This document shows positions 15,841-36,094 of a stretch of DNA of 64,000 nucleotides, piece by piece. Source of the stretch: Byssothecium circinans (Eukaryota > Ascomycota > Dothideomycetes > Pleosporales > Massarinaceae); the NCBI GenBank assembly GCA_010015675.1, contig ML977006.1:99875-163874 (forward strand), in the 5' to 3' direction. Each line of letters starts with the position of its first letter. The stretch's first letter is position 1. Under the pieces are notes generated by a model. It saw nothing but the letters and a program-made list of their open reading frames with translations, was not told where the DNA came from and did not search any database. Made by a program: the position numbers and the translations under genes.

Positions 15841-16109
15841 CACGGGACCGATGAAGGACGTGGAGACCAATTACTCACGATCCACCAAACAATATTCAAG
15901 CCACTCTATTGGATAGAATCCTTAGCATTCAATCCCCATAGGCTCCTCATCTAGTCCCCATTAAAACACTAGGTGAGAGAAATTTACTGCCCCCGCGCGG
16001 TGCGAATTTTCCTCGCTTAGCCGTCAATGCAGCTAAATTAAGTATCCCCACTGTGCCCACCCACTACATGTACTATATTGACAGCAAAAAACACCATCAA
16101 CTACATCAA
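15841..16109. other. spacer between P450 relic and tRNA gene
   Basis: Degenerate DNA upstream of the P450 fragment and 5' flank of the tRNA. No coding frame is supported. Confidence 0.4.
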
Positions 16110-16240
16110 GCATCGGTGGTTTAGTGGTAAAATTAGCCGTTGCCAGAGAGCAATGTCGGCTAGCCCCGGGTTCGATTGTGAGTTCCTTCAAAATTGATGG
16201 GAGGGATGAGTTACTAATAGTGTATAGCCCGGCCGATGCA
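16110..16240 (+). tRNA. tRNA-Gly(GCC) with a canonical intron and an extra spliceosomal-like insertion in the T arm
   Basis: The acceptor stem GCATCGG (16110-16116) pairs perfectly with CCGATGC (16233-16239), followed by the discriminator A at 16240. The D arm is GTTT-AGTGGTA-AAAT. The anticodon stem AGCCG (16135-16139) pairs with CGGCT (16157-16161); removing GAGAGCAATG (16146-16155) restores the 7-nt loop TTGCCAT with anticodon GCC and the intron after position 37, where nuclear tRNA introns sit. The T stem CCGGG (16166-16170) and loop TTCGATT (16171-16177) are followed not by the 3' strand but by a 50-nt insertion (16178-16227); CCCGG (16228-16232) then completes the stem. A-box and B-box core GGTTCGA are present, and a T8 Pol III terminator lies 18 nt downstream. 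All stems pair perfectly once both insertions are removed, so the body is not decayed. Confidence 0.87.
16178..16227 (+). other. 50-nt T-arm insertion with spliceosomal intron signals
   Basis: The insertion begins GTGAGT and ends TATAG. It contains TTACTAAT, a branch-point-like motif, with its likely A at 16217, ten bases from the 3' end. Its length equals that of ordinary protein-gene introns here (for example 3886-3935 and 6204-6253, both 50 nt). It lies between tRNA positions 60 and 61, not where tRNA splicing endonuclease normally cuts. No target duplication flanks it. Confidence 0.8.
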
Positions 16241-16258: not shown

Positions 16259-16266
16259 TTTTTTTT
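16259..16266 (+). terminator. Pol III T-run terminator of the tRNA gene
   Basis: Eight consecutive T residues, followed by C and six more T residues, 18 bases after the discriminator base. This is a normal Pol III stop signal and supports the tRNA unit ending here. Confidence 0.75.
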
Positions 16267-33504: not shown

Positions 33505-36094
33505 ATGCCACCCAAGTCGGGCCACCACCGCGCGAAGAACATCGGTTACGATGACGATGACTTGTATAGCGACGAGGACGAGTACTATGAGGAGGATGGT
33601 GGAGGCGCCGATATGACAGAGGACGACAAGGAGCAGATGGCGGCCGCTACAATACAAGTCAAAGAGGCCCTCGGCGGAAGCTTGAGTGTGACGGACGCGC
33701 AGATACAGGAGGCATTGTGGCACTACTACTACGACGTGGGCAAATCGGTCATATATCTGAAGAGCATGCGTCTCGAATCTCTGCCCACGGATCATGCTAA
33801 TGGCTTTAGACAAATACACACCAAAGGCTCCAACACAGCCAAAAGAGGCACAGAAGCCAGCCTCACGGTTCGACCAAGCGGCGAATGCTGCGGGCGCGGG
33901 AGCTCCTACCGGTAAGCACTCACTATGTCATGTACAGTCATCGACCTGCGCCGCGCTGAGCCAAACGAATACCGACCTACTCTATCCAGGGGCATCCCTC
34001 GCCATCATGCCCAACGAATACATCTCCGCAAAGACGAGGAATTTCTTCTGGGATACACCTTGGGGAGGAGTTGAACAACAGAGACTCGGTATCATTGTGG
34101 AGCCTGTGCGTCCGCGAGGTGGCCTTCTGGGCGGCTCTAAACTTGCGGCTCTGGCGGCGAAACGCAAACAGAAACAGCAGGAACAGGCGCTGAAAGCCGA
34201 CGGAACTAGCGATGCCGATCAAGCTGTGGCACTATTGGACAAGCTCAGCGTGACAAGAGATCAACCTACAACTACGGCCCCTGATATCCCTAAGCCAGCC
34301 GCTCGGTACCAGCGCAAAAGATCGCCGTCTCCGGAACCTCTGAAGCAAGAATCAGAGGAGGAAGAGCTCGCCCCTGAGCCAGTAAAGCCGGCTATCGAGT
34401 TCCCTGACCTACGCGCCAAGCCTTCCATGTTCGCAGAGACGCTGTGCTGCGGGGATGGTGATCAGAAACAACCGCAGATCGAAGGCATTTCCAGCTTTGA
34501 CGTGCCGTACAGTAGGCTGTCGAAATTCAGGGCGAGCAATCCATGGGATGGACCGAGCCCAGACGACGTCGTTCATGAGGCCCAAAAGCGCGGCGCAGGC
34601 CGACATTGATTGTAACAGCCGTGAAATTACCGCTTCTAAGACCAGACAGGACCTCCGAAGGCAAAAACACCGAAGAAAACTAGGGACGAAGCTAGAGATG
34701 AGGGCCTCGCTGAATCTGTGGACAAGCTTACCGTTGATAACACGCCGAAAGTCAAGAGTAAGAACTTGAACGTACCACAAGAATTTGCCAACAGTAGCAT
34801 GAAAAAAGTGTCGAATTTCGTTGTCATTGGTAAGCCTGCCGTCCGTCGGTGAATACGCGGGGACTAATTGCGACGCCTAGGACATGTTGATCATGGAAAG
34901 AGCACGCTCATGGGTCGGTTGCTATATGACATGAAGGTTGTCGATCAACGTTCAGTGGAGAAGCTACGAAAAGAGGCGGAGACCATAGGGAAGTCGTCAT
35001 TCGCACTAGCATGGGTCATGGATCAGACGAGCGAAGAACGGAGTCGCGGAGTGACGGTAGATATCGCCACGAATAATTTCGAAACCACCAATACGCGGTT
35101 TACAATCCTCGACGCCCCCGGTCATCGCGACTTTATACCAAACATGATAGCTGGAGCCTCACAAGCCGATTTCGCCGTGCTAGTGATCGACGCCAGCACG
35201 AACAGCTTCGAATCAGGTCTGAAGGGCCAAACCAAGGAGCATGCGTTGCTGGTACGCAGCATGGGCGTACAGCGTCTCGTCATTGCCGTCAACAAGATGG
35301 ACACTGTTGGGTGGTCAGCACAGCGATTTAACGAGATATCCCAACAAATGACGGCCTTCCTAGTATCCGCCAACTTTTCAGCCAAGCTAATCACCTTCGT
35401 GCCTGTCGCTGGATTGACAGGCGGAAACGTTGCCAAGCGGATCGAAGACCTTGAGGCAGAGTGGTACAAAGGTCCCACGCTCGTCGAAGCCCTCGACTCA
35501 ACAGAGCCACCCGCGCGACTCGTCGACAAATCGCTCCGCCTCACCATTGCCGACGTCTTCCGCGGGGGCATCACCAACCCAGTCTCCGTCTCTGGCCGTA
35601 TCGACGCAGGTAACGTACAGATCGGCGACGTGCTCCTCGCCATGCCCTCCAACGAAAAAGCCGTCGTCAAAGCCATCGAAGTGGAACAAGGCGAGCCCGT
35701 CGATTGGGCAGTTGCCGGCCAGATACCCACCCTGCACCTCCAAGGAATCGACCCCATACACCTCCGCCTCGGCGACATCCTGTGCGATCCCACCAACCCA
35801 ATGCGGCTCATCAAGTCCTTCACCACGAAGATCTTGGCGTTCGAGCACGTTCTTCCCTCTTCCGTGGACGTTTTCAGGGGCAGGCTGTGGGCTGTGGGAC
35901 GGATTACGAAACTCTCTGCCATCTTGAATAAGACAGGGAAAGCGGAGGTTGTGAGGAAGAAACCGAGGATTGTTAAGCCGGGGGAGGTGGCAAGGGTGGT
36001 GGTGGAGTTGGAGAGGGAGTTGCCGCTCGAGAGGGGGGTGAGAGTTGTGTTGAGGGAGGGGGGGAGTACGGTTGCGGCGGGGTTGTTGGAGTGA
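33505..36094 (+). CDS. HBS1: Hbs1, Dom34-associated translational GTPase, about 787 aa
   Basis: Partner of Dom34 in rescue of stalled ribosomes (no-go and non-stop decay), in the eRF3/eEF1A family. Proposed exons: 33505-33763, 33810-33911, 33990-34598, 34650-34829 and 34881-36094. The acidic N-terminus and helical HBS1-N domain (AAATIQVKEALGGSLSV, IQEALWHYYYDVGKSVIYL) are followed by a linker with FDVPYSRLSKF and PWDGPSPDD, then the GTPase: G1 GHVDHGKST, switch region ERSRGVTVDI, G3 DAPGHRDF, G4 NKMD, and two beta-barrel domains. Two junctions lack a GT donor in the correct phase and fit GC donors instead (33764 and 34599); at 34512 a GT exists, but using it would delete the PWDGPSPDD block. 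The first junction could instead use a weak GT at 33770. Function call is firm; exon borders 1 and 3 are less so. Confidence 0.9.

Follow-up and report, generated by a model that had tools for sequence, protein, structure and literature searches.

The 50-nt insert in the T arm of a tRNA-Gly(GCC) gene of Byssothecium circinans is in all likelihood a U2-type spliceosomal intron, carried by a nuclear tRNA gene of Pol III type and removed by the spliceosome. It is one of at least 21 such inserts in 20 tRNA genes, and this fungal cell very probably uses its mRNA-splicing machinery for making tRNAs. The Gly gene lies in a stretch of 64,000 nt (positions 99,875–163,874) of contig ML977006.1 (the window, to which plain coordinates refer) and comprises the following elements.

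16110–16240, forward strand: tRNA-Gly(GCC) gene (locus L015), whose stems pair with both introns removed
16110–16116 and 16233–16239, forward strand: acceptor arms, followed by the discriminator A at 16240
16146–16155, forward strand: canonical 10-nt tRNA intron at 37/38, of the Sen-endonuclease type
16178–16227, forward strand: 50-nt insert, read as a U2-type (GT-AG) intron, following T-loop position 60 and preceding the 3′ T stem (60/61), with GTGAGT ... CTAAT ... TAG
16178–16183, forward strand: 5′ splice site GTGAGT, read from the sequence
16214–16218, forward strand: branch-point motif CTAAT, the branch-type A (16217) lying 10 nt before the last intron base
16225–16227, forward strand: 3′ splice site TAG, the intron ending in TATAG, read from the sequence
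16169–16179, forward strand: B box GGTTCGATT, assigned by the consensus, its last two bases (CC) replaced by the GT of the intron
16259–16266, forward strand: run of eight T, probable Pol III terminator, read from the sequence
16074–16079, forward strand: TATATT about 35 bp upstream of the gene, located by eye

Once the two inserts are taken out, all stems of the gene pair, as the preliminary description had claimed. The acceptor stem GCATCGG/CCGATGC forms 7 of 7 pairs, the anticodon stem is AGCCG/CGGCT with GCC as the anticodon, and the T stem is formed by CCGGG (16166–16170) and CCCGG (16228–16232), with the T loop TTCGATT at 16171–16177. The ordinary intron described after position 37 was found in its place; the 37/38 introns of the other Gly(GCC) copies are located identically and measure 20, 20 and 31 nt. 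The borders proposed for the T-arm insert proved exact to the base, and its reported anatomy, with GTGAGT at the start, a branch-like motif ten bases from the end and a terminal TATAG, was recovered; the branch region reads TTACTAAT and the 3′ part TTACTAATAGTGTATAG. The mature sequence is identical to that of three further Gly(GCC) genes (L023, L024 and L027), all of which lack the 50-nt insert, and neither the mismatched stems nor the substitutions of a pseudogene are present. CAA directly precedes the gene; as judged by eye, the layout of TATATT and CAA is common to many other interrupted genes. In the three insert-free Gly(GCC) genes the TATA-like box is located about 80 bp upstream, some 40 bp farther than in many interrupted genes (by eye), which suggests a longer leader.

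Detection of the gene depends on removal of the insert. Neither ARAGORN nor Rfam at gathering scores found a tRNA in the unspliced window, and ARAGORN called tRNA-Gly(gcc) when the 50 nt were taken out. We further used a structure-only test in which every deletion of 35–90 nt was tried in a gene and ranked by cloverleaf score alone. For the Gly gene three deletions were equally good, one of them being GT-AG; GT-AG deletions make up 0.8% of all those tried. An intron-aware scanner run over 318 tiles of the window matched the Gly locus only, and gave no match on the reversed window. A search of the 50-mer against other introns and tRNA genes had been suggested. Near-identical copies would mark a repeated, introner-like intron; the exact 50-mer recurred in none of the 243 other loci fetched, which cover part of the genome. 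Inserts of similar type occur in at least 19 further tRNA genes.

These genes were gathered from the assembly (48.4 Mb, 109 contigs). Scoring 63 of 1497 first-look candidates with the Rfam tRNA model yielded at least 44 matches (E ≤ 0.001), and when the long matches were read through, like inserts appeared in tRNA-Lys, -Ser, -Arg, -His and -Thr. A search for GGTTCRANYCC with a T run behind it had 90 genome matches, and every new place among them was fetched; for the AGTTC variant of this B-box pattern a selection was made by eye among 100 of 108 matches. Further loci came from four weak Rfam matches, from 70 of the 71 unread places among 100 of 278 matches, and from 20 of 100 places among 151 matches. 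The scanner scores each cloverleaf as it stands and after one or two GT/GC-AG segments have been excised; it sees inserts of this kind only, and those of other kinds fall outside the count. It was applied to 234 of 244 loci, leaving out four repeats and six loci with runs of N, and 3-kb loci were represented by their middle 600 bases. With a minimum score of 24, it recognised 59 distinct tRNA genes, 39 insert-free, 19 with one insert and one (Arg-TCT) with two. The census of these 234 loci thus holds at least 21 GT/GC-AG inserts in at least 20 tRNA genes, and none of the same loci gave a match when reversed. The initial reading, an mRNA-type intron in a tRNA gene, is therefore strongly supported and turns out to be general, since 20 of the 59 recognised genes carry one; such introns may have entered by reverse splicing, as first suggested. 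The insertion sites are as follows.

Gly-GCC, window: 60/61
Lys-CTT, L043 and L064: 52/53
Lys-CTT, L119: 57/58
Lys-TTT, L145: 57/58
Asn-GTT, L061 and L083: 52/53
His-GTG, L047: 52/53
Thr-TGT, L051: 50/51
Leu-CAG, L091: 53/54
Ser-GCT, L019: variable arm
Arg-CCT (L054), Arg-CCG (L098), Val-CAC (L058), Ala-CGC (L063) and Thr-AGT (L146): D loop
Ile-AAT, L084: 25/26, at the D/anticodon junction
Thr-CGT (L044) and Pro-CGG (L068): acceptor stem, 3/4
Arg-TCT, L103: D loop and 26/27 (two inserts)

The sites thus span the acceptor stem, D loop, D/anticodon junction, variable arm, T stem and T loop, and all 21 inserts lie outside 37/38, the canonical place of tRNA introns; 14 of the 20 genes hold a canonical 37/38 intron as well. 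Copies free of a spliceosome-type insert exist for His, Ile-AAT, Thr-AGT and Gly-GCC. Ser-GCT, Thr-TGT, Thr-CGT, Arg-CCT, Arg-CCG, Arg-TCT, Val-CAC, Ala-CGC, Pro-CGG and Leu-CAG were seen in interrupted form only, in the loci gathered without a dedicated search. No iMet, eMet, Phe, Trp or Tyr gene turned up among the loci scanned.

Several tRNA-like loci were kept out of the count. L032 and L052 resemble tRNA genes and score below 24, and L087 was rejected as a probable chance match. L055, L057, L062, L066, L069, L106, L110, L113 and L114 are tRNA-like or B-box matches of uncertain structure. Among these, L057 (G000:C4:183706-184116) and L069 (G000:C18:251966-252376) are two tRNA-like paralogues in which the acceptor, D and T arms pair; their middle of about 65 nt accommodates no ordinary anticodon loop with a 37/38 intron and no GT-AG solution. 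L110 and L114 form 7 of 7 and 6 of 7 acceptor pairs, have their 5′ end and B box 192 and 179 nt apart, and may contain several introns or be dead. L041, L042, L046, L048 and L053 are similar degenerate tRNA-like elements with a GGTGGGATGGCT-type start, scattered over several contigs, and look like a tRNA-derived repeat.

The 21 inserts share the anatomy of spliceosomal introns. They are 48–64 nt long (median 52) and begin with GT in 20 cases and GC in one; position 5 is G in 20 and position 6 is T in 17, and the 3′ end is CAG in 13 and TAG in 8. CTRAY is present in all of them, as CTAAY in 18 and CTGAC in three. All 21 have the branch-type A 9–12 nt upstream of the last base, whereas shuffled interiors gave on average 0.48 such inserts and never more than 4 (5000 trials). 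The introns at 37/38 of the recognised genes served as a control: none of 48 has GT-AG ends in any of three registers, and four of 48 contain CTRAY anywhere. Removal of the inserts yields a complete cloverleaf in 20 of 20 genes by our own scorer and by ARAGORN, which recognises seven of the 20 unspliced. For five of these 20 spliced genes ARAGORN assigns a different amino acid, having placed the 37/38 intron elsewhere.

The structure-only test is most telling for the nine genes cut in or next to a stem and found without recourse to splice signals (the window Gly gene, Lys L043 and L064, His, Thr-TGT, both Asn genes, Ile and Leu). The best deletions contain a GT-AG register in nine of nine, with 1–6 ties each, while GT-AG accounts for 0.2–0.9% of all deletions tried in these genes. 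Inserts in the D loop and variable arm leave 31–67 tied registers, and their exact borders were chosen by the splice signals. For Ser(GCT) and Arg(CCG) the scans give another tied register, and the border was chosen from the paralogue and the splice consensus; in Arg(CCT) an alternative donor, GCACGT, is possible four bases upstream. L044, L119, L145 and L146 were resolved by a scan asking for splice signals, and the Arg-TCT, Pro-CGG and loop-located inserts were read with such signals in mind. Thr-CGT and Pro-CGG were cut at the start suggested by GT-AG and each Arg-TCT intron was tested after removal of the other, so none of these cases is independent. Chance resemblance was rejected on the strength of the structure-only deletions, the shuffles, the 37/38 control and the tiling of the window.

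The similarity in length to mRNA introns of the window, first noted for the Gly insert, held up: its 50 nt compare with 44–57 nt in five mRNA introns placed by homology, in which the branch-type A lies at 9–13 nt. Two of these introns belong to an HBS1-like gene, two to a calpain-like gene and one to an ataxin-10-like gene (PF09759); the HBS1-like pair was read by eye, a greedy spliced alignment having given spurious introns. The tRNA inserts as a whole (48–64 nt) match these five host introns in length and signals. The mRNA-intron motifs (CTAAT twice, CTGAC, TTAAC and CTTAC) are looser, which with n = 5 is a hint only. At 33764–33809 the HBS1-like gene has an apparent 46-nt GC-AG mRNA intron (GCATGC...CTAATGGCTTTAG), the frame fitting the homologue P0002. 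The nearest named match of the HBS1/EF1-alpha-like protein of the window is a Periconia digitata protein with 81% identity, and most other high-ranking named matches belong to Pleosporales, pointing to a host of this order.

The flanking and internal sequences of the interrupted genes point to Pol III. A run of at least four T follows within 40 nt in 17 of the 19 genes other than that of the window; no such run was seen within this distance after L146 or L047. Where an intron lies in the 5′ strand of the T arm, at 52/53 or 53/54, its terminal AG abuts GTTC or TTC and so restores a B box (AGGTTC or AGTTC) spanning the junction. At 57/58 the B box itself is interrupted, and each of the two introns there has GTTCGAATC within it. 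The Thr-TGT intron carries GTTCGATTC, its gene having its own B box intact, and no B-box core was found inside the Gly intron of the window. B-box cores thus occur inside three of 21 introns compared to 0.07 expected, a number never reached in 5000 shuffles. From the pattern of T runs and B boxes we infer that Pol III reads the interrupted genes.

Other Pol III genes appear to be spared. A genome search found no intron in the U6 gene: in G000:C14:277621-278945 (L120–L122) a single U6 gene without intron is accompanied by a partial match in inverted orientation at about 150 bp and by a further weak partial match at about 1.2 kb. No intron was found in the 18 5S genes above 70 bits, each of 120–121 nt (47 of 2330 candidates scored); four weaker 5S matches were also obtained. 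A general invasion of Pol III genes was rejected, U6 and the 18 clear 5S genes being uninterrupted, and the target would be tRNA genes rather than Pol III genes at large.

The distribution of interrupted copies bears on function. A 31-mer from the 5′ half of tRNA-Asn, searched with up to three mismatches, matches the genome twice, both times in interrupted genes. Eukaryotes read the Asn codons with a single anticodon. Therefore, barring divergent or unassembled Asn genes, there would be no Asn-tRNA without insert removal. The corresponding Lys(CTT) 31-mer (up to three mismatches) has three genome matches, all interrupted, at two different T-arm sites, and the sole Lys-TTT gene found, in this case without a dedicated search, is interrupted too. 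The two Asn genes are identical in mature sequence and their inserts match at 36 of 59 aligned columns; likewise L043 and L064 of Lys are identical in mature sequence, with inserts matching at 38 of 54 aligned columns. These diverged inserts retain donor, branch and acceptor. Since all Asn and Lys(CTT) genes found are interrupted, with mostly identical mature parts and diverged introns, removal of the inserts is probably obligatory. The Lys-TTT intron (L145) contains GTGGGTTCGA, ten bases of the T arm of its own gene. This copy is a possible trace of intron birth by local duplication, in a single case.

It had been left open whether the Gly copy is dead; in that reading its insert would only resemble an intron and other tRNAs would supply the cell. 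For the class of interrupted genes this is unlikely, given that both Asn genes and all three Lys(CTT) genes found are interrupted, so that a gene with such an insert need not be dead; L146 may be dead. For the Gly copy itself it retains some ground, and we regard it as improbable. The three insert-free Gly(GCC) genes could make the window copy dispensable, the insert alters two B-box bases with no replacement, and the tRNA-intron review (PMC4090602) presumes most eukaryotic tRNA genes with short D- or T-arm insertions to be pseudogenes. However, the mature sequence bears no substitution, the splice signals are complete and a T run is in place.

The remaining alternatives accept the introns and change either the enzyme or the polymerase. 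Spliceosomes usually act on Pol II transcripts, and the introns look like ordinary mRNA introns, as would be expected if the interrupted genes were read by Pol II in longer transcripts and spliced in the usual way. The T runs, present behind 17 of 19 genes and behind that of the window, the TATA-like and CAA motifs seen by eye before many of them, and the internal B boxes of both 57/58 introns that cut the gene's own argue against this, and we consider it very improbable. Endonuclease introns need neither GT-AG ends nor a branch motif. Cleavage of the inserts by the tRNA splicing endonuclease, in the manner of archaeal and red-algal non-canonical introns, would be consistent with the 37/38 introns of 14 of the 20 genes and with the statement in PMC4090602 that certain eukaryotic endonucleases can recognise non-canonical splice positions. 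However, of 19 testable inserts two show bulge-helix-bulge-like pairing at the borders, compared to 5.9% of slid positions (by a simple pairing count), and GT-AG is absent from all 48 introns at 37/38. This makes the endonuclease a most implausible agent. Removal by the spliceosome remains the preferred reading.

A broader proposal, which we hold to be likely, is that the spliceosome would be an obligatory tRNA processor in this fungus. It would serve all Lys and Asn tRNAs and probably also Ser(AGY) together with several isoacceptors for Arg, Thr, Val, Ala, Pro and Leu, acting on Pol III transcripts, many of which also contain a Sen-type intron; Arg-TCT would need it twice, and the 57/58 introns would carry a replacement B box. 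Under the preferred reading, Pol III would transcribe the gene from the A and B boxes to the T run, the copy within each 57/58 intron that cuts the B box probably serving TFIIIC. The spliceosome would recognise GTRNGT, CTRAY and YAG in the pre-tRNA and take out the insert by two transesterifications, probably early, because complete folding of the tRNA requires that D-loop and T-arm introns be gone. Where a 37/38 intron is present, its removal would fall separately to the Sen endonuclease and ligase, and RNase P, RNase Z and CCA addition would then complete the tRNA.

If this is true, a third route of tRNA maturation exists beside the endonuclease and self-splicing, and protein synthesis depends on the spliceosome at the level of tRNA. 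The rule that nuclear tRNA introns lie at 37/38 and are cut by Sen would fail in this lineage; the exceptions so far, named in PMC4090602, are a red alga and nucleomorphs. Three questions become testable, namely whether the spliceosome can handle Pol III RNA at scale, by what path introns get into structured RNA genes, and how a split internal promoter survives. Furthermore, tRNA finders can miss interrupted genes, as the unspliced ARAGORN calls illustrate, and therefore fungal tRNA censuses may lack essential tRNAs.

Introns of mRNA type occur in fungal U6 snRNA genes. As in the present case, these are spliceosomal introns in a Pol III gene for a non-coding RNA; U6, however, is one gene and part of the spliceosome, whereas here many tRNA genes are interrupted and the fungus's own U6 is intron-free. 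Spliceosomal introns also occur in nuclear rRNA genes of ascomycetes. A title of 1993 in the reference list of PMC11782384 names a messenger RNA intron in the 18S gene of deuteromycetes. The rRNA introns are likewise spliceosomal, found in fungi and in a structural RNA of the translation machinery, but their host is a large RNA made by Pol I, whereas the genes described here are small Pol III genes with internal promoters. The canonical 37/38 introns share their host genes with the inserts in 14 of 20 cases and differ from them in place, in their ends (GT-AG in none of 48) and in the branch motif.

According to a statement in the tRNAscan-SE 2.0 paper (PMC8450103), eukaryotic tRNA genes are limited to one intron. 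Non-canonical eukaryotic tRNA introns are known from nucleomorphs and a red alga (PMC4090602). Archaeal, red-algal and nucleomorph introns resemble the present inserts in occurring in the D and T arms and in numbering several per gene. The corresponding sections of PMC4090602 attribute recognition of the archaeal and red-algal introns to a bulge-helix-bulge cut by the endonuclease and give 3–24 nt for those of the Guillardia nucleomorph; GT-AG ends with a branch motif are not described there for any of the three groups, and the stem 'spliceosom' is absent from the review's main text. A limited literature search, which does not establish priority, found no published report of spliceosomal introns in tRNA genes. 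The kind of intron is known; its tRNA host, and a supply of tRNA that depends on the spliceosome, appear to be new.
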